Source: Synechococcus sp. UW69
GTDB taxonomy: Bacteria; Cyanobacteriota; Cyanobacteriia; PCC-6307; Cyanobiaceae
Assembly (NCBI RefSeq): GCF_900474185.1
Contig: NZ_UCNW01000008.1
Location: 1-64,000, forward strand
DNA: 64,000 nucleotides
Reading direction: 5' to 3'
Positions 27,444-34,234 of the stretch are shown here, piece after piece (position 1 is the first letter of the stretch; each line of letters opens with the position of its first letter). The translations under genes were made by a program, and so were the position numbers. The notes under the pieces were generated by a model, which saw nothing but the letters and a program-made list of their open reading frames with translations, searched no databases and was not told the origin of the DNA.

Positions 27444-27488
27444 AGACCCGTTCTCAGTGCCCCGCTTTGTAGCGAGAGGAACAGGTCT
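27444..27488 (+). promoter_or_regulatory. imperfect dyad in the sigma factor leader
   Basis: AGACC-C-GTTC (27444-27453) pairs with GAAC-A-GGTCT (27479-27488), nine pairs with one mismatch. It ends two bases before the AAGGAG ribosome site, so it could be an mRNA leader hairpin or an operator. Confidence 0.4.
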
Positions 27489-27489
27489 C

Positions 27490-27495
27490 AAGGAG
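27490..27495 (+). promoter_or_regulatory. ribosome binding site that decides the sigma start
   Basis: AAGGAG at 27490-27495 is spaced six bases from ATG 27502. It supports that start instead of an in-frame codon at 27457. Confidence 0.75.
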
Positions 27496-27501
27496 TACCG
27501 A

Positions 27502-28215
27502 ATGGAGTTTGTGCCGTGGTGGCACGGATGCCAAGGCTTACCCCGCTCTGCCAAGGCTGGAGATGAGATCGACTCGCATCCTTTGAACAAGAAATGCCTC
27601 CAGCGTCGGAACCGTCAGATTCAGGACAACTTGCATCTGGTCCGTCCCATTGCGCGCCATTACGCCCTGCAAACAGGCCTCGAGCAAGATGATCTCCTGC
27701 AGGTGGGCTGTCTCGGACTGATCAAGGCTTCAAACCGATTTGAAACCAAGCGAGGAACAACATTCCCCAGCTTCGCTAAACCGCATATCCGGGGAGCCAT
27801 TCTTCACTTTCTACGGGACAAGGTTGGTGTAATCCGCCTTCCAAGAGCCGTTGAGGAACGGGCCATGAGGATGCTGCGAAGCCCTGAAGGCTGCTTAAAC
27901 GCTGCTGATGCTCTGGTCGTTCACCAGTACCGCAGCAAGCATCACTGGGTGGAGTTCAACGATGACCTGGTCGATGACACACCGCAGGGGATCGAATTGG
28001 TCGCACGTTCAGAAGCGTGGCAGCGGGTTCGAGCAATGTTCCTGAGGATTGGAACAGATGAACAACGTGTCCTTCAGATGGTTGTGATCGATGGAATGAG
28101 CCTTAGGCAGACAGCGCGACAACTCGGGATTTCAGCGATGACGGTTCAACGACGCGTCAAACGCGGCCTGAGAAGCCTCGCGAGCCAATTGAACGAAGAT
28201 CACGCCGGGGTTTGA
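27502..28215 (+). CDS. alternative RNA polymerase sigma factor, group 3
   Basis: 237 residues. Region 2 is complete (NLHLVRPIARHYA, LEQDDLLQVGCLGLIKASNRFETKRGTTFPSFAKPHIRGAILHFLRDK at about 48-112). Region 4 is at the C-terminus with a helix-turn-helix (LRQTARQLGISAMTVQRRVKRGLRSL). Region 1 is missing and region 3 is short, as in the SigF/SigG-like group 3 of cyanobacteria, which act in stress responses. ATG 27502 chosen by its AAGGAG site. The 3' end overlaps a small minus-strand gene by 16 bases. Confidence 0.9.
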   Translation: MEFVPWWHGCQGLPRSAKAGDEIDSHPLNKKCLQRRNRQIQDNLHLVRPIARHYALQTGLEQDDLLQVGCLGLIKASNRFETKRGTTFPSFAKPHIRGAILHFLRDKVGVIRLPRAVEERAMRMLRSPEGCLNAADALVVHQYRSKHHWVEFNDDLVDDTPQGIELVARSEAWQRVRAMFLRIGTDEQRVLQMVVIDGMSLRQTARQLGISAMTVQRRVKRGLRSLASQLNEDHAGV

Positions 28216-28307
28216 GTGTCGCGGTCCATTTGTTCCTGGAGTGTCTTGATGGCGGCGTTCAGCGCCGAAAGTTGCCGTTCAGCACTATCCCTCCAAAAAC
28301 GCAGCAT
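28200..28307 (-). CDS. very small conserved-looking protein (35 residues)
   Basis: From ATG 28307 the product is MLRFWRDSAERQLSALNAAI and then a short charged tail ending QTPA. One amphipathic helix. I have seen comparable 35-40 residue proteins in marine Synechococcus. An earlier start at 28385 would add 26 unlikely residues. The 3' end overlaps the sigma gene by 16 bases. Confidence 0.5.
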   Translation of the reverse strand: MLRFWRDSAERQLSALNAAIKTLQEQMDRDTQTPA

Positions 28308-28371
28308 CGACAGCTTCCGCTCCTGATGGTGCCGGCGCAAGGTTGCGTGATCAGTGGTGCCGCTGCAACAG

Positions 28372-28407
28372 AAAGGAGGAAGCATGTCAGCAAAAGCAAT
28401 CCCTTAG
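28372..28407 (+). promoter_or_regulatory. strong Shine-Dalgarno with a 7-codon open frame
   Basis: AAAGGAGGA (28372-28380) is followed after three bases by ATG at 28384 and an open frame MSAKAIP with stop TAG at 28405-28407. The Shine-Dalgarno is one of the best in the window but no real gene follows. It may be a leader peptide for the DUF3370 gene, which starts 134 bases later. Confidence 0.35.
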
Positions 28408-28540
28408 ATCCTGACGGATTTTCAGACGTGATGCGACTCCTCAATCACTTGGCTCTCGCAGGAGGTGGACCTACGGTGTGGATTCAAAACATCTGCACTG
28501 TGGTGTCGACGTCCAAGCGAACACCACAACACCACGCCGC

Positions 28541-30085
28541 ATGAGTCTCAGACGAGTCCCAATATTGGTCTTGCTCTGCGTCTCGTTTGCGGGACTTGAG
28601 TTTGGTTTGCAGGGGAGGAGCGAGGCATACGTCGCCTTGATGGCTGGTCAACGTGCACGCCCCTTAAACGGGACGTTTAACAACGTCCCGGTTCTGCATT
28701 CAAACCAGCCGGAGATTGTCACTGGTCCAGGGATTCTGGTGAACACAGCGCCCGGATCGGCCATCGCTGCTGAGTCCAATCAGCCGCTTCGCAACGCCGC
28801 TTACTCCTTCAACGGTGAGTTCGGCGTTCACATGCATCACAAGTACTACCCCCAGGACCTGTCAAAGCTTGGTGGACGTCGATCCAGGGGCTTGATGACC
28901 CTGGCTCTGATTGCAACGAATCCTGGATCGAAGCCAATCACGCTTCAATTCGACCGTGGTTCCGTCAAAAACAGTTTTGAGGCGCCGTATCACCCAAATC
29001 GCCTGATGGGGGTGAAGCCCCTGGGGAAGCGTCCCTGGAATACAGGACCGGGTGATGCCACTGCCGTTCAACTGCTTCGCGGTGAATTAGACCGCAAACT
29101 GCCCGATCGTCTTGAGATACCCGCTGGAGGACGACGGGTCGTGGTACGAACCGTGCTGCCTGCCCGTGGCATCGCCAACGGTCTGTTGAGGGGACGCAGC
29201 AATGGTCCTTTCACCATGGCTGTCGTTGCTGCTGAGCAATCAGCACAGGATTCCGATCTCTTTGCGGTGTTGCAGTCAGGTCACTTGGCGCCTGGACGGA
29301 TTTATCTCAACCGTATTCGTGAAATCCAGCTGGGCAGGGTCTTCTCGCGCGTGGCTGGAGTGGCTCTCGGCGATGCCTACAAGGCCGAGATCCACCATGA
29401 TCTCGGTCAGGGGGCACTCCATGTTCCCCTTACCAGTACGAAGCGGCATCACTTCGGCACGCGCGACATTCAGGTCAATCCATTAACAACGCGGATGGTG
29501 GATTCCGCTTTGAACAACGTTGGCACCTACGGCGTTCGTTACGACGTGACACTCAACCTTTCAGGTGCGGGCCCCCATCAACTGGTGCTCAGTCACCCGG
29601 TTGTTTCCGGAAAGAAAACGTTCACTGCCTTCCGTGGATCGCTGCAGATTGTTCAGGATCAGACGCTTCAGGAGGTCCATGTCGGCATGCGCTCAGGCGA
29701 GAGCCTGGCCCTGGCGGATCTCAACCTGGCTCCTGGAACAACAAAGGCTGTCAAGGTGAGTTTGGTTTACCCAGCTGATGCCACACCTGGCCACCTGCTG
29801 AGTGTTGTTCCCGTACAGCAACTGGCCATGCTTCACCGGCGCCAGCAGCAACAGCGTGACGCCCAGGTCAAACTCGCTGAAACCAAATCTCGCAAGGTGG
29901 GTCCCAAAACCGCACCGCCACAACCCCCGCTTACGCCTGTTGTTGTGAAGCCAGCTCCCATGCAGCAGAAGCGCAACACCGCACCCCTTCCTTCGACGCC
30001 TGCGATCGTGCCTGCCACCAGTCCTCGCTACAGCGAGGTGATCCAATCGCAGCAGCAGTGGTTGCTTCAGCTGCAGGGTCGATAA
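28541..30085 (+). CDS. DUF3370 family exported protein
   Basis: 514 residues with a signal peptide (SLRRVPILVLLCVSFAGLEFG, residues 2-22). Sequence blocks typical of DUF3370, a cyanobacterial family: GTFNNVPVLHSNQPEIVTGPGILVNTAP, FNGEFGVHMHHKYYP, LVLSHPVVSGKKTFTAFRGS. Probably a periplasmic or surface beta-rich protein; function unknown. The C-terminal ~70 residues are Pro/Lys/Gln-rich and look disordered. ATG 28541 chosen because the signal peptide follows it. A perfect 9-base stem with 4-base loop lies at 28669-28690 inside the gene. Confidence 0.85.
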   Translation: MSLRRVPILVLLCVSFAGLEFGLQGRSEAYVALMAGQRARPLNGTFNNVPVLHSNQPEIVTGPGILVNTAPGSAIAAESNQPLRNAAYSFNGEFGVHMHHKYYPQDLSKLGGRRSRGLMTLALIATNPGSKPITLQFDRGSVKNSFEAPYHPNRLMGVKPLGKRPWNTGPGDATAVQLLRGELDRKLPDRLEIPAGGRRVVVRTVLPARGIANGLLRGRSNGPFTMAVVAAEQSAQDSDLFAVLQSGHLAPGRIYLNRIREIQLGRVFSRVAGVALGDAYKAEIHHDLGQGALHVPLTSTKRHHFGTRDIQVNPLTTRMVDSALNNVGTYGVRYDVTLNLSGAGPHQLVLSHPVVSGKKTFTAFRGSLQIVQDQTLQEVHVGMRSGESLALADLNLAPGTTKAVKVSLVYPADATPGHLLSVVPVQQLAMLHRRQQQQRDAQVKLAETKSRKVGPKTAPPQPPLTPVVVKPAPMQQKRNTAPLPSTPAIVPATSPRYSEVIQSQQQWLLQLQGR

Positions 30086-30109
30086 CCTTCGCTGAGCAGG
30101 ACTGAACTT

Positions 30110-31111
30110 TTGAGCGGCGAGGACTCAAAACGTCAACGGATCTCTGTCGAGATGTCAGAGCCCATGGTCGAGTTGATTGACCAACTCAAGGGTGAATACG
30201 GAGCACGCTCTCGGGGGCGTGTGCTCGAAATGCTTTTGCAGGATCTGCTCGATCCAGGCGATGGGAGCACAGGCCCTGAGGAAACATCCGTCAAGGACGA
30301 AGGTGAACCAGAGGCGACAACCAGCACTGATGAGATAACGAGTCTGGTTTTGATTGGCTCCGGAAGTCTTCTCCACAATGCAGAACCGAGCCAACCTCCC
30401 GATTCCAGCGCACCTTCCGCCAACGTTTCTTCGGGCATTGATCTTCCAGGTTTCGTGAGCAAGCGAACCGGTCAGCTCAAAGCGACACTCCGGTCGCCGC
30501 AGCAACGAGATTCCGCTCAGAACGATCCCTTGGTTTCGACGGTTGATCCTTCTGATTTACGAGATGCCAGTGCTGCGGCTGAAGATCACTGGAGATCTCT
30601 GTATGGACAACCACCGGGCCCCACAGTGATCGAAGCCTCCATGACATGGCTAGCCCGCGACGTCTGGTCCAGCACTGACGCCAGTGATGGCCGGCCGTTC
30701 ACCTGGTCTGCGGCCAATGCTGCTGTTGAGACGCTTTGTGCTGGCTGGGAGTCCCGTGACCCTTCCCTAGGCCGGGTGATGGCCGTTGCAGGTGCGCTTG
30801 AGGATCCATTCGCCACCTCATCCCTGGCGGAACGCATGCCGACGTTGATCCGCCGGTTTGTCAATCGTTTTCGTCGCAGCCGTCAGGTCACCTCCTTCGA
30901 AACTCTTGAGTCCACGATGACGGTCCACGGAGCGCTCAAGCTCTTAGGCCTGTCCACGCGAGCGGGCACAGCGGTGACCTTGAGCTCCATTCGGGATGCC
31001 TATAAACAGCGGGCCCTGGAAGAACATCCCGATGCAGGCGGATCAACCGATGCGATGCGTCGACTCAATGAGGCCTACCGACTGCTGCGCGAGCTGTACC
31101 GCAATCGCTAG
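30110..31111 (+). CDS. ribbon-helix-helix plus DnaJ-type J-domain protein
   Basis: 333 residues. Residues 10-48 (RISVEMSEPMVELIDQL, then SRGRVLEMLLQDLLD) look like a CopG-type ribbon-helix-helix. A disordered acidic/Ser/Pro stretch follows to about 140, then a helical part (TVIEASMTWLARDVWSS, FTWSAANAAVETLCAGWES). Residues 276-333 look like a J-domain: LSSIRDAYKQRALEEHPDAGGS with HPD at 306-308 and MRRLNEAYRLLREL. Such J-domains stimulate DnaK. The start is TTG at 30110, 24 bases after DUF3370. No published function that I recall. Confidence 0.75.
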   Translation: MSGEDSKRQRISVEMSEPMVELIDQLKGEYGARSRGRVLEMLLQDLLDPGDGSTGPEETSVKDEGEPEATTSTDEITSLVLIGSGSLLHNAEPSQPPDSSAPSANVSSGIDLPGFVSKRTGQLKATLRSPQQRDSAQNDPLVSTVDPSDLRDASAAAEDHWRSLYGQPPGPTVIEASMTWLARDVWSSTDASDGRPFTWSAANAAVETLCAGWESRDPSLGRVMAVAGALEDPFATSSLAERMPTLIRRFVNRFRRSRQVTSFETLESTMTVHGALKLLGLSTRAGTAVTLSSIRDAYKQRALEEHPDAGGSTDAMRRLNEAYRLLRELYRNR

Positions 31112-31174
31112 CGCAATCGTCCAAGGCGAGACGCAAGCCTGGATCCTCAATGAGTCGCATCTGAGACCTTTGCG

Positions 31175-31708
31175 CTACCCCTTTTCTTCCGCCCCATGGC
31201 TCCGAACAATCAACCAGGCACTGAGAGCCAGCATCACCACCGATCCACTGAGTGCCAGTAGATCGGTGGCATTTTTCACCTCAAAACCAATTGTCTTTTT
31301 GAACGCTGCGACAATCAGGCCGACAACAATCACGTTGGAGAGATTGTTTTTAAGGCTTTGCAGGCTGTTCACCGAAAGGATGTTGGTGTGTTGTTCAGAG
31401 CCTCCTTCAAGGCGTGGATCAAGGTCTGAAATCACCAATTCATAGATGCCATAGCCAAAGATGAGCAAGGCAATGCCGATGACGAAATAATCAACACCGC
31501 CCACCATCTGAGCGATGGTTTTGGCAGCGAAGCTTTTTGTGCTGAAGGGCATTCGCATGATCACGAGAAAAGCGTTAAAGACTTCAATCGCACCAATAAC
31601 GAAGCAGCCGACGCTGCCGAGAAGGCTCAGCACGACGGGAACAATGCTGATCAGACGAAATTTCCAGATGAGCCGCTCAAACCGCCTTTCAATCCAACGG
31701 GCGACCAT
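31175..31708 (-). CDS. yqhA: YqhA family membrane protein (UPF0114)
   Basis: 177 residues with four hydrophobic segments. Conserved YqhA features: an amphipathic N-terminal RWIERRFERLIWKFRLI, DYFVIGIALLIFGYGIYELVIS, DLDPR and SLQSLKNNLSNVIVVGLIV with a C-terminal SGSVVMLALSAWLIV. Inner-membrane protein of unknown function. Start is ATG 31708, where family similarity begins; a longer reading to 31747 adds 13 residues. Convergent with the J-domain gene, 63 bases away. Confidence 0.9.
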   Translation of the reverse strand: MVARWIERRFERLIWKFRLISIVPVVLSLLGSVGCFVIGAIEVFNAFLVIMRMPFSTKSFAAKTIAQMVGGVDYFVIGIALLIFGYGIYELVISDLDPRLEGGSEQHTNILSVNSLQSLKNNLSNVIVVGLIVAAFKKTIGFEVKNATDLLALSGSVVMLALSAWLIVRSHGAEEKG

Positions 31709-31830
31709 GGGAAATTCACAGCAGCCTCCACGGCTAGCACAGAACACAAAACGAACTCACTTGTCTCACGCGTGACTCATTAGCAGTCTCGCCTCATGTC
31801 TTATGCGCGAGGCTTGCTAATTAATAAGAT

Positions 31831-32014
31831 CCCAAAAAGCTGTTTTTTTATTGGATCATCCCTGAGATGGATTGCAAACCATTCCAGCGAACAATAGTTC
31901 CGTTTGTCGTTCGTCCATGTCCAGTCCAGCTCTTGTGCGCAAGTCGCTAGAAGCATTGATTGCAGCCGGTTTGAGGCTCGCGTACCTGCTGTAGACACAG
32001 GTACGCGAGTTTTT
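31831..32014 (+). ncRNA. candidate small RNA ending at a strong terminator
   Basis: A perfect 12-base stem and T5 tail ends at 32014 with no protein gene upstream on the plus strand for about 900 bases. A TAAGAT box at 31825-31830 could place a start near 31835, giving a transcript of roughly 180 bases. The 5' CCAAAAA can pair with TTTTTGG at the 3' end. This is inference from the terminator and box only. Confidence 0.35.
31977..32014 (+). terminator. strong rho-independent terminator
   Basis: CTCGCGTACCTG (31977-31988), loop CTGTAGACA, then CAGGTACGCGAG (31998-32009), a perfect 12-base stem, followed by five T. No plus-strand gene ends here, which raises the possibility of an unannotated RNA. 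Confidence 0.85.
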
Positions 32015-32193
32015 GGTGCTGGATTTCGAGTTTTGGGGCCTATTCATGTGTATCTCGATTCCCGTACTGGAATTATCGCAAGACTCGCGCTGCGTCTTGA
32101 GCGAGTCAGCTGGGATCGCTCTGTGACTTATTGATCTCAGCCGCGTCTCGTTGTGAGTCTTGCGCTTTGTCTCAAAAGAGATCGCTGGGCATT

Positions 32194-32221
32194 AAAAAAC
32201 CGGGCTCAAGCGCCCGGTTTT
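32194..32221 (-). terminator. rho-independent terminator after apcD
   Basis: AAAACCGGGC (32196-32205) and GCCCGGTTTT (32212-32221) form a 10-base stem with a six-base loop; the minus strand reads into T6. It lies 20 bases past the apcD stop. T4 on the plus strand could make it work in both directions. Confidence 0.85.
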
Positions 32222-32241
32222 AAGTGATGAGGATCCTTGGA

Positions 32242-32736
32242 TCAGGTTGACGTTTGCATGCCTTGAATCAGGTAGTCGAAATAAGGCGACGTGAGCTTCA
32301 CCTGCTGTTCCGACAAAAGCGCCAGGGAGGCGTCCTTCATGCACTTGATGGCTTCCACCATGCCTGGCATCGGAACACCCAGGCTGTTGTACATCTCGCG
32401 TGCGCCCACCAAGCCGATCTCCTGGATCATTTCGGTGCTACCCGCAAGGACTCCGTAGGTGACCAAGCGCAGGTACCAGCTGTAGTCACGCAGGCACTGG
32501 GCGCGCTGACGTTGACCGTAGGCATTGCCGCCGGGGGCGACGTACTCCGGCTTACGACCAAACAACTGCTTGGCAGATTCGTCGACGATCTTCTTTTCGT
32601 TCTCGGTCAGAACCTTGACCACGGACACGCGCATGGCGCCTTGGTCAAGGAAATCCACCATCGTGCGGAGTTCGCCACTGGTGGGATACCGCAGATCGTC
32701 ATCGGCCTGGAGGATGAGATCCCGGACAACGCTCAT
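32242..32736 (-). CDS. apcD: allophycocyanin-B alpha subunit (terminal emitter)
   Basis: A phycobilisome core subunit that passes excitation energy to the photosystems. 164 residues with the phycobiliprotein globin-like fold; the bilin cysteine is in RAQCLRDYSWYLRLVTYGVLAG near 80. The N-terminus ILQADDDLRYPTSGELRTM and the LGVPMPGMVEAIKCMK region match ApcD rather than ApcA, ApcB or ApcF. It stands alone, away from the apcABC operon, as is usual for apcD. ATG 32736; divergent from rlmD; a strong terminator follows. Confidence 0.93.
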   Translation of the reverse strand: MSVVRDLILQADDDLRYPTSGELRTMVDFLDQGAMRVSVVKVLTENEKKIVDESAKQLFGRKPEYVAPGGNAYGQRQRAQCLRDYSWYLRLVTYGVLAGSTEMIQEIGLVGAREMYNSLGVPMPGMVEAIKCMKDASLALLSEQQVKLTSPYFDYLIQGMQTST

Positions 32737-32836
32737 GGAACTGGGCAGGCTTCGTGGAGTTTAGTGGTCTCGACCCGTTCACCCGACCCAACTCCGCCCG
32801 GGTGTTACGCCATTGCAATGGCAGGGAACCTTGAGC

Positions 32837-34234
32837 ATGACCTACGCCGACAGCTCGAACAGCAGTGATCCGCGGCCGGGGCTCACCATCGAGGTGGAAT
32901 CTGTTGACCTCGACCGTGACGGAAAAGGACTGGCCCGTTGGAACAACTGGGTGATTGTCGTGCCTGATCTCCTGCCAGGGGAGCGTGCCATGGTTCAACT
33001 CCAGCAACGCCAACGTTCCCGCTGGCTGAGCCGACGCGTTGAGCTGCTCTCCGTCTCCGAGGTTCGGCGCCGTCCCCCTTGCATCCTTGCTGACGACTGT
33101 GGTGGCTGCACACTGCAACGTCTCGATGATCCAGCTCAGACCCGTTGGAAAGAGCAACAGATCCAGCAGACCATGCAGCGGATTGGAGGAATCAACCTTG
33201 CACCCGCGGCTCCCTTGGTTGATGCCGACCGTTGCTTCGGCTATCGCAACCGAGCCCTGATTCCTTTGAAGCGAGACCAGAACGGACGCCTGAAAGCTGG
33301 ATACTTCCGTCCCAGGTCCCACAAGATTGTCAATCTGAATCACTGTCCGGTGCTTGATCCACGTCTGGATGCACTGTTGGAACCCATTAAAAAAGACCTT
33401 GATGCAGGGGGTTGGCCGGCCGACCATGACCTCATCGATGCCCAAGGTTTGCGTCATCTCGGCCTTCGTTTGGCCAGCGCCACTGGCGATGTGTTGATCA
33501 CTCTGATCAGCAGCCATGGCCAACTTCCTGGACTCCATGACCTTGCCCAGACCTGGGTTCAGCGATGGCCTGAGGTGAAGGGTGTCTGCCTGAACCTTCA
33601 ACCGAAGGCCAACAATCTCGTTCTCGGTCGAACGACCCACTGCCTCGCCGGTTCGTCGACCATCGAGGAACAGTTCTGCGGCATCAAGCTTTCCCTGAGC
33701 AGCACCACCTTTGTTCAGGTGAACACATCACAAGCGGAACGCATTGTTCAGCGGCTGACTGACTGGCTGTCGTTTCAATGTGATGGCGGAACCGTGGTCG
33801 ATGCCTACTGCGGTGTCGGAACCATTGCTCTACCCCTGGCAAAGGCTGGCTTTCATGTTCAGGGTTTGGAATTGAATCCCGACTCTGTGGAGCAGGCTCG
33901 GCTGAACGCCATGCACAACGGCCTTTCCTCACGCTGTGAATTTCATCCAGGTGATGTGGCGGATTTGCTCGCCTCTCAGCTTGAGAACTGCCAAGCCCTC
34001 GTTCTGGATCCACCCCGACGGGGCCTCGATCGCCGCGTGGTAGCCAGCATTCTTGAGCAACCTCCCGCAGTGCTGGCTTACCTCAGTTGTGATCCCGCCA
34101 CCCAGGCAAGGGATCTCAAAGAACTTCTTGCACCATCAGGCCCCTACGAGCTGGAAACTCTTCAGCCCGTTGATTTCTTCCCCCAAACAACTCACCTTGA
34201 GTCGTTGGCGCTGATGAAGCGAATCAGCTCCTGA
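32837..34234 (+). CDS. rlmD: 23S rRNA (uracil-C5) methyltransferase, RlmD/TrmA family
   Basis: 465 residues. N-terminal TRAM-like part (GLTIEVESVDLDRDGKGLARWNNWVIVVPDLLPGERA), four cysteines for a 4Fe-4S cluster (RPPCILADDCGGCTLQ and NHCPV), SAM-binding VVDAYCGVGTIALPLA, and the catalytic cysteine in YLSCDPATQARDL. Methylates a uridine in rRNA with SAM. The exact uridine (1939 or 747-like) cannot be told here. ATG 32837 preferred. Overlaps convergent pheT by 11 bases. Confidence 0.9.
   Translation: MTYADSSNSSDPRPGLTIEVESVDLDRDGKGLARWNNWVIVVPDLLPGERAMVQLQQRQRSRWLSRRVELLSVSEVRRRPPCILADDCGGCTLQRLDDPAQTRWKEQQIQQTMQRIGGINLAPAAPLVDADRCFGYRNRALIPLKRDQNGRLKAGYFRPRSHKIVNLNHCPVLDPRLDALLEPIKKDLDAGGWPADHDLIDAQGLRHLGLRLASATGDVLITLISSHGQLPGLHDLAQTWVQRWPEVKGVCLNLQPKANNLVLGRTTHCLAGSSTIEEQFCGIKLSLSSTTFVQVNTSQAERIVQRLTDWLSFQCDGGTVVDAYCGVGTIALPLAKAGFHVQGLELNPDSVEQARLNAMHNGLSSRCEFHPGDVADLLASQLENCQALVLDPPRRGLDRRVVASILEQPPAVLAYLSCDPATQARDLKELLAPSGPYELETLQPVDFFPQTTHLESLALMKRISS

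Follow-up and report, generated by a model that had tools for sequence, protein, structure and literature searches.

A predicted class C J-protein with a ribbon-helix-helix-type N-terminus and an orphan helical domain in Synechococcus and Prochlorococcus

Described J-proteins and DnaK partners on DNA

J-domain proteins of class C may carry the J-domain at any position and may contain nucleic-acid- or DNA-binding domains (PMC8215388). CbpA of E. coli is a nucleoid-associated, DNA-binding J-protein (PMC4063869). DnaK also acts together with a DNA-bound repressor, HspR (HspR-DnaK-DNA; PMC4063869, PMC10415612).

The window analyzed here, a 64,000-nucleotide stretch of Synechococcus DNA, contains a gene at 30110-31111 (forward strand, TTG start) for a protein of 333 aa, termed RHH-J in the following. 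It is predicted to consist of a ribbon-helix-helix (RHH) N-terminus, a helical middle domain, and a C-terminal J-domain. The first-pass annotation had recognized both ends and overlooked the conserved middle domain and an IxLPxF motif (residues 110-115).

Like class C J-proteins, RHH-J has an HPD-containing J-domain, and G/F and zinc-finger regions were not found. As this class allows the J-domain to lie anywhere and includes DNA-binding domains, RHH-J is a class C member in a new arrangement. A J-domain behind a DNA-binding module had been considered odd at first. This does not hold for the C-terminal position, for the same reason, but it does hold for the partner domains. In the literature searched, from which subscription papers were mostly absent, we found neither a prior description of an RHH/J-domain fusion nor the combination of RHH, orphan helical domain, and J-domain.

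CbpA resembles RHH-J as a J-protein linked to DNA, a link that is predicted for RHH-J. In CbpA and class B, however, the J-domain is N-terminal and client domains are C-terminal, and CbpA has no RHH domain, whereas Pfam and AlphaFold2 (AF2) place the J-domain of RHH-J at the C-terminus, and its RHH is a separate module. HspR is MerR-like and lacks a J-domain of its own, while Pfam finds RHH_1 and no MerR domain in RHH-J; by analogy, one chain might do what HspR and DnaK do separately. With CopG/MetJ/Arc regulators and with stand-alone RHH relatives, RHH-J would share the strand-helix-helix segment and has RxRG at helix 2 in common, but the stand-alone relatives are 51-80 aa long and lack the J and middle domains.

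On balance, we lean towards RHH-J being a DNA-tethered, dimeric class C J-protein that recruits DnaK for a DNA-bound client. Few photosynthetic cells are as abundant as those of Prochlorococcus and Synechococcus, whose regulator sets are small. The Hsp70 system is normally connected with DNA through separate proteins (HspR and DnaK); a near-universal, single-copy, lineage-specific coupling of RHH and J-domain would provide this connection physically and directly. RHH-J is a candidate recruiter of DnaK to DNA in marine picocyanobacteria.

The RHH-type N-terminus and probable DNA binding

Two orthologue sets were aligned, one of 35 diverse and one of 118 distinct sequences. dN/dS was computed against six close relatives, and AF2 was run on the orthologue alignment.

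The RHH/CopG-type domain comprises residues 8-48 (30131-30253, forward strand), with a putative strand at about 10-16 and helices at 17-30 and 32-47, as judged from Pfam, conservation, dN/dS, and AF2. The window protein alone matches RHH_1 at residues 10-47 with E = 0.0026 and 18.1 bits, which is below the curated Pfam cut-off of 20.5. As the single-sequence score of the J-domain is also below its cut-off, both domain calls needed support from relatives. RHH_1 matches 24 of the 35 diverse orthologues at E < 0.1 (best 3.3e-5), and the isolated N-terminus of one orthologue clears the cut-off (22.0 bits). Within the same bacterial family, short stand-alone RHH proteins match the segment with profile E-values of 5e-16 to 1e-11, and one of them scores 1e-6 against RHH_1. 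Profile searches of the PDB gave only weak matches (E 0.17-0.56), including CopG and NikR, but nearly all of these are RHH proteins. The AF2 monomer model contains both helices; the strand, which forms only in a dimer, is unassigned. The dN/dS of the segment is 0.02-0.14. Residues from about 10 to 47 very probably adopt the RHH fold. The first-pass annotation had assigned residues 10-48 to this type and would have given the assignment up if no such fold were predicted or the N-terminus were unconserved; both helices of the fold are predicted and the N-terminus is conserved. Among the stand-alone RHH proteins, L186, L187, L190, L188, and L189 are very near to the RHH part, and three of them end in KDNPKS.

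The predicted domain probably binds DNA, as judged from its residues. All 118 distinct orthologues have D24, R35, and G36, and 117 of them have R33; in the strand, R10 is kept in 99/118 and S12 in 104/118. Basic residues at the start of RHH helix 2 usually contact the DNA backbone. The RHH profile matches together with invariant R35/G36 and near-invariant R33 opening helix 2 argue for a DNA-tethered J-protein, as do the strand residues R10 and S12, the very similar stand-alone RHH proteins, the intact HPD, the J fold, purifying selection on three domains, and the precedents of HspR-DnaK and CbpA.

Other observations point the opposite way. Position 14, which is DNA-facing by analogy with CopG, is D/E in 96/118 orthologues, and in its RHH half, the window protein carries more acidic than basic residues (10 D+E vs 7 K+R); both speak against strong non-specific DNA binding. 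When the 250 nt upstream were aligned for 68 AT-rich orthologues, neither a conserved palindrome nor an operator-like footprint was found. In addition, 7/35 matching criteria rest on single-sequence profile matches under the Pfam cut-offs. The acidic RHH half, position 14, the acidic linker, and the lack of an upstream footprint in these orthologues would all suit a specialized J-protein that uses RHH for dimerization or protein contact only, and whose middle domain selects a clade-specific client, e.g., an assembly intermediate, for DnaK. The middle domain, clade-confined and conserved like both ends, agrees with this role. We nevertheless regard this explanation as rather unlikely, because the basic residues opening helix 2 are invariant and the segment is most closely related to stand-alone RHH proteins of the kind typical for DNA-binding regulators.

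J-domain, middle domain, and proposed action of DnaK

The J-domain spans residues 266-333 (30905-31108, forward strand). In the window protein alone, Pfam DnaJ matches residues 279-327 with E = 9.7e-5 and 22.8 bits, below the cut-off of 27.8. It matches all 35 diverse orthologues (best 1e-7), two of which clear the cut-off (28.6 and 30.3 bits). The AF2 model has J helices at 272-278, 291-305, and 313-332, so that structure prediction recovered this fold as well as the two RHH helices. In Foldseek, the J part comes nearest in structure to Tim14 (2guz_A), with 1.3 Å over 59 columns and a TM-score of 0.73 by target length; probabilities against Tim14 and DnaJ J-domains are 0.9-1.0, although whole-model E-values are at least 0.1. 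HPDxGG is common to both, but Tim14 is a mitochondrial membrane import protein, and the likeness is in fold only.

The HPD motif (residues 306-308; 31025-31033, forward strand), noted as intact in the first-pass annotation, lies within HPDxGG in 118/118 distinct orthologues. In helix II, R295, Y298, and K299 are nearly invariant in the same set; we take them to correspond to R22, Y25, and K26 of E. coli DnaJ. Q300 presumably stands at the position equivalent to DnaJ R27, which is not kept. The G/F region, the zinc finger, and the DnaJ C-terminal domains are absent, as Pfam finds DnaJ and RHH_1 only, and NCBIfam DnaJ_bact scores 13.1 bits against a cut-off of 377. Judged by its fold and HPD and by the absence of class A and B features, the predicted protein belongs to the class C J-domain proteins, and from the intact HPD and the helix II contacts, we infer that the J-domain recruits DnaK.

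Alternatively, RHH-J might be an RHH transcription regulator in which the J fold has ceased to cooperate with DnaK and is a plain protein-binding or oligomerizing domain. This would account for Q300 and for the low Pfam J-domain scores in many orthologues. Proteins that lose DnaK contact, such as Tim16, typically lose HPD. Here, HPD is invariant in the 118 orthologues, R295, Y298, and K299 are kept, and the dN/dS of the J-domain (0.01-0.04) is the lowest within the protein, which makes this alternative improbable. The same genome encodes a second protein with a C-terminal J-domain (L040, G000:C8 about 247460; 266 aa, HPDLGGS), which is kept in related genomes.

Between the two ends lie a linker, a motif, and the middle domain. 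The linker (residues 49-109; 30254-30436, forward strand) is disordered and mostly acidic, with pLDDT < 50 at residues 50-108, and orthologues' linkers are net acidic. Its dN/dS or pN/pS of about 0.17-0.46 is relaxed relative to the RHH, middle, and J segments. It contains a short conserved LVLI motif at about 79-82, in which V80 occurs in 117/118 orthologues. The I-x-L-P-x-F motif and the following helix (residues 110-130; 30437-30499, forward strand) are conserved, with I110, L112, P113, and F115 in 118/118 distinct orthologues; AF2 places the helix at 114-127.

The all-helical middle domain (residues 140-262; 30527-30895, forward strand) reaches pLDDT 91.5 and pTM 0.86 in AF2 when modelled alone. 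It ends in a basic helix (RxPTLIRRFVNRFRRSR). Its conservation, with dN/dS of 0.02-0.04, equals that of both ends. Neither Foldseek against the PDB and viral models (BFVD) nor a profile search in the PDB yielded a convincing relative. The middle domain is a confidently predicted fold, for which no relative in these collections was found by sequence or structure.

For the DNA-tethered J-protein, we propose the following. The RHH strand and helices would hold two chains together as a dimer, and this dimer would bind specific or semi-specific DNA sites. The middle domain, carried on the flexible acidic linker, would probably serve to bind a partner or client. The two C-terminal J-domains of the dimer would recruit DnaK to the DNA-bound assembly and trigger its ATPase, as suggested by HPD and helix II. 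Chaperone-dependent regulation would be the likeliest outcome: as with HspR-DnaK, a DNA-bound partner or the RHH protein itself would be remodelled, stabilized, or released by DnaK. That a DNA-bound protein recruits DnaK, which the first-pass annotation had called unusual, is a reasonable reading of the predicted domains. It is also possible, though we advance it tentatively, that RHH-J is a clade-defining, chaperone-linked regulator in which the DNA-bound dimer's own two J-domains place DnaK on a client bound to the new helical domain. DnaK availability would then feed straight into transcription or chromosome behaviour.

Distribution, losses, and genomic neighbourhood

Residues 1-277, i.e., RHH and middle domain with the J-domain excluded, were found in 250/271 genomes of the same family, which by named records comprises Synechococcus, Prochlorococcus, and relatives. 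Across a class-wide sample, matches that cover RHH and middle domain fall without exception within this family, and other cyanobacteria match at J-domain positions only (best E = 2.2e-11). In a phylum sample, the middle domain is present in 56/57 family genomes vs 0/329 others. The full architecture, whose spread the first-pass annotation had proposed to examine, is thus confined to this family. Phages, viral contigs, and plasmids gave no full-length relative; as matches there were limited to the J-domain or absent, such an origin was rejected. A published list of clade signatures (PMC2823733) has no entry of fitting length, so the gene is not listed there.

Weak single-sequence scores and the TTG start could hint at chance resemblance or a mis-called reading frame. 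The chance of this is negligible, because it is contradicted by full-length conservation in the 250 genomes, an open frame without internal stops, dN/dS well under 1, and folded models. Purifying selection is strong on the RHH, middle, and J segments.

The gene is chromosomal, single copy, and retained in streamlined genomes. This would agree with a nucleoid or chromosome-maintenance factor, in which RHH binds at many sites and DnaK remodels replication or segregation complexes rather than regulating genes. Precedents are CdbA, an RHH nucleoid protein (PMC10313047), and the nucleoid-associated CbpA (PMC4063869). Repeated losses in Prochlorococcus without obvious replacement argue against it, and we consider such a role very improbable. 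In G158 (100% complete; L234, G158:C1), the HIT gene and pheT flank two decayed RHH-J fragments; in G207, G218, and G175, both flanking genes are present with nothing recognizable in between. The gene is also absent from G007 and from all seven g8 genomes tested. As it has been lost repeatedly and from several genomes, RHH-J is not indispensable and its role not vital; the gene is core to the group yet dispensable. Prochlorococcus loci with the gene decayed or missing and the same flanks are L234, L236, L237, and L239.

The widely kept locus order is HIT-type hydrolase, sigma-70-like factor, DUF3370, RHH-J, TrmA-like methyltransferase, and pheT. The DUF3370 gene (28478-30085, forward strand; Pfam PF11850, E = 5.6e-99) ends 24 nt upstream of RHH-J on the same strand, in agreement with the first-pass annotation, and adjoins it at most loci compared. 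It is absent from the site at L072, L073, L077-L079, L087, and L158. Loci of high-light-type Prochlorococcus lack it there and retain RHH-J. At the Prochlorococcus loci L072, L073, L077-L079, and L158, the sigma-70-like gene is absent as well. As RHH-J is retained there, DUF3370 is a conserved neighbour, neither obligate nor a fixed partner. A literature search for DUF3370 found nothing.

The sigma-70-like factor (regions 2 and 4) lies at 27457-28215; it travels with DUF3370, and both are missing at several Prochlorococcus loci. A small frame between the two (28212-28544) has counterparts in L086 and L099 that are 57-62% identical. An Rfam scan of 28000-33000 gave no matches, and a promoter and terminator scan found no promoter-like site and ordinary terminators. 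Over its first 30 codons (30110-30199), RHH-J reaches a synonymous conservation of 0.91, compared with 0.60 over the remainder of the gene. Neighbouring genes share this trend, usually more weakly (pheT 0.84 vs 0.72), and a hidden element in these codons was dropped as a candidate. The start codon in the 118 distinct orthologues is GTG in 63 and TTG in 48 (together 111/118), and ATG in only 7; in 104/118, ATG is absent from the upstream stop to the RHH segment.
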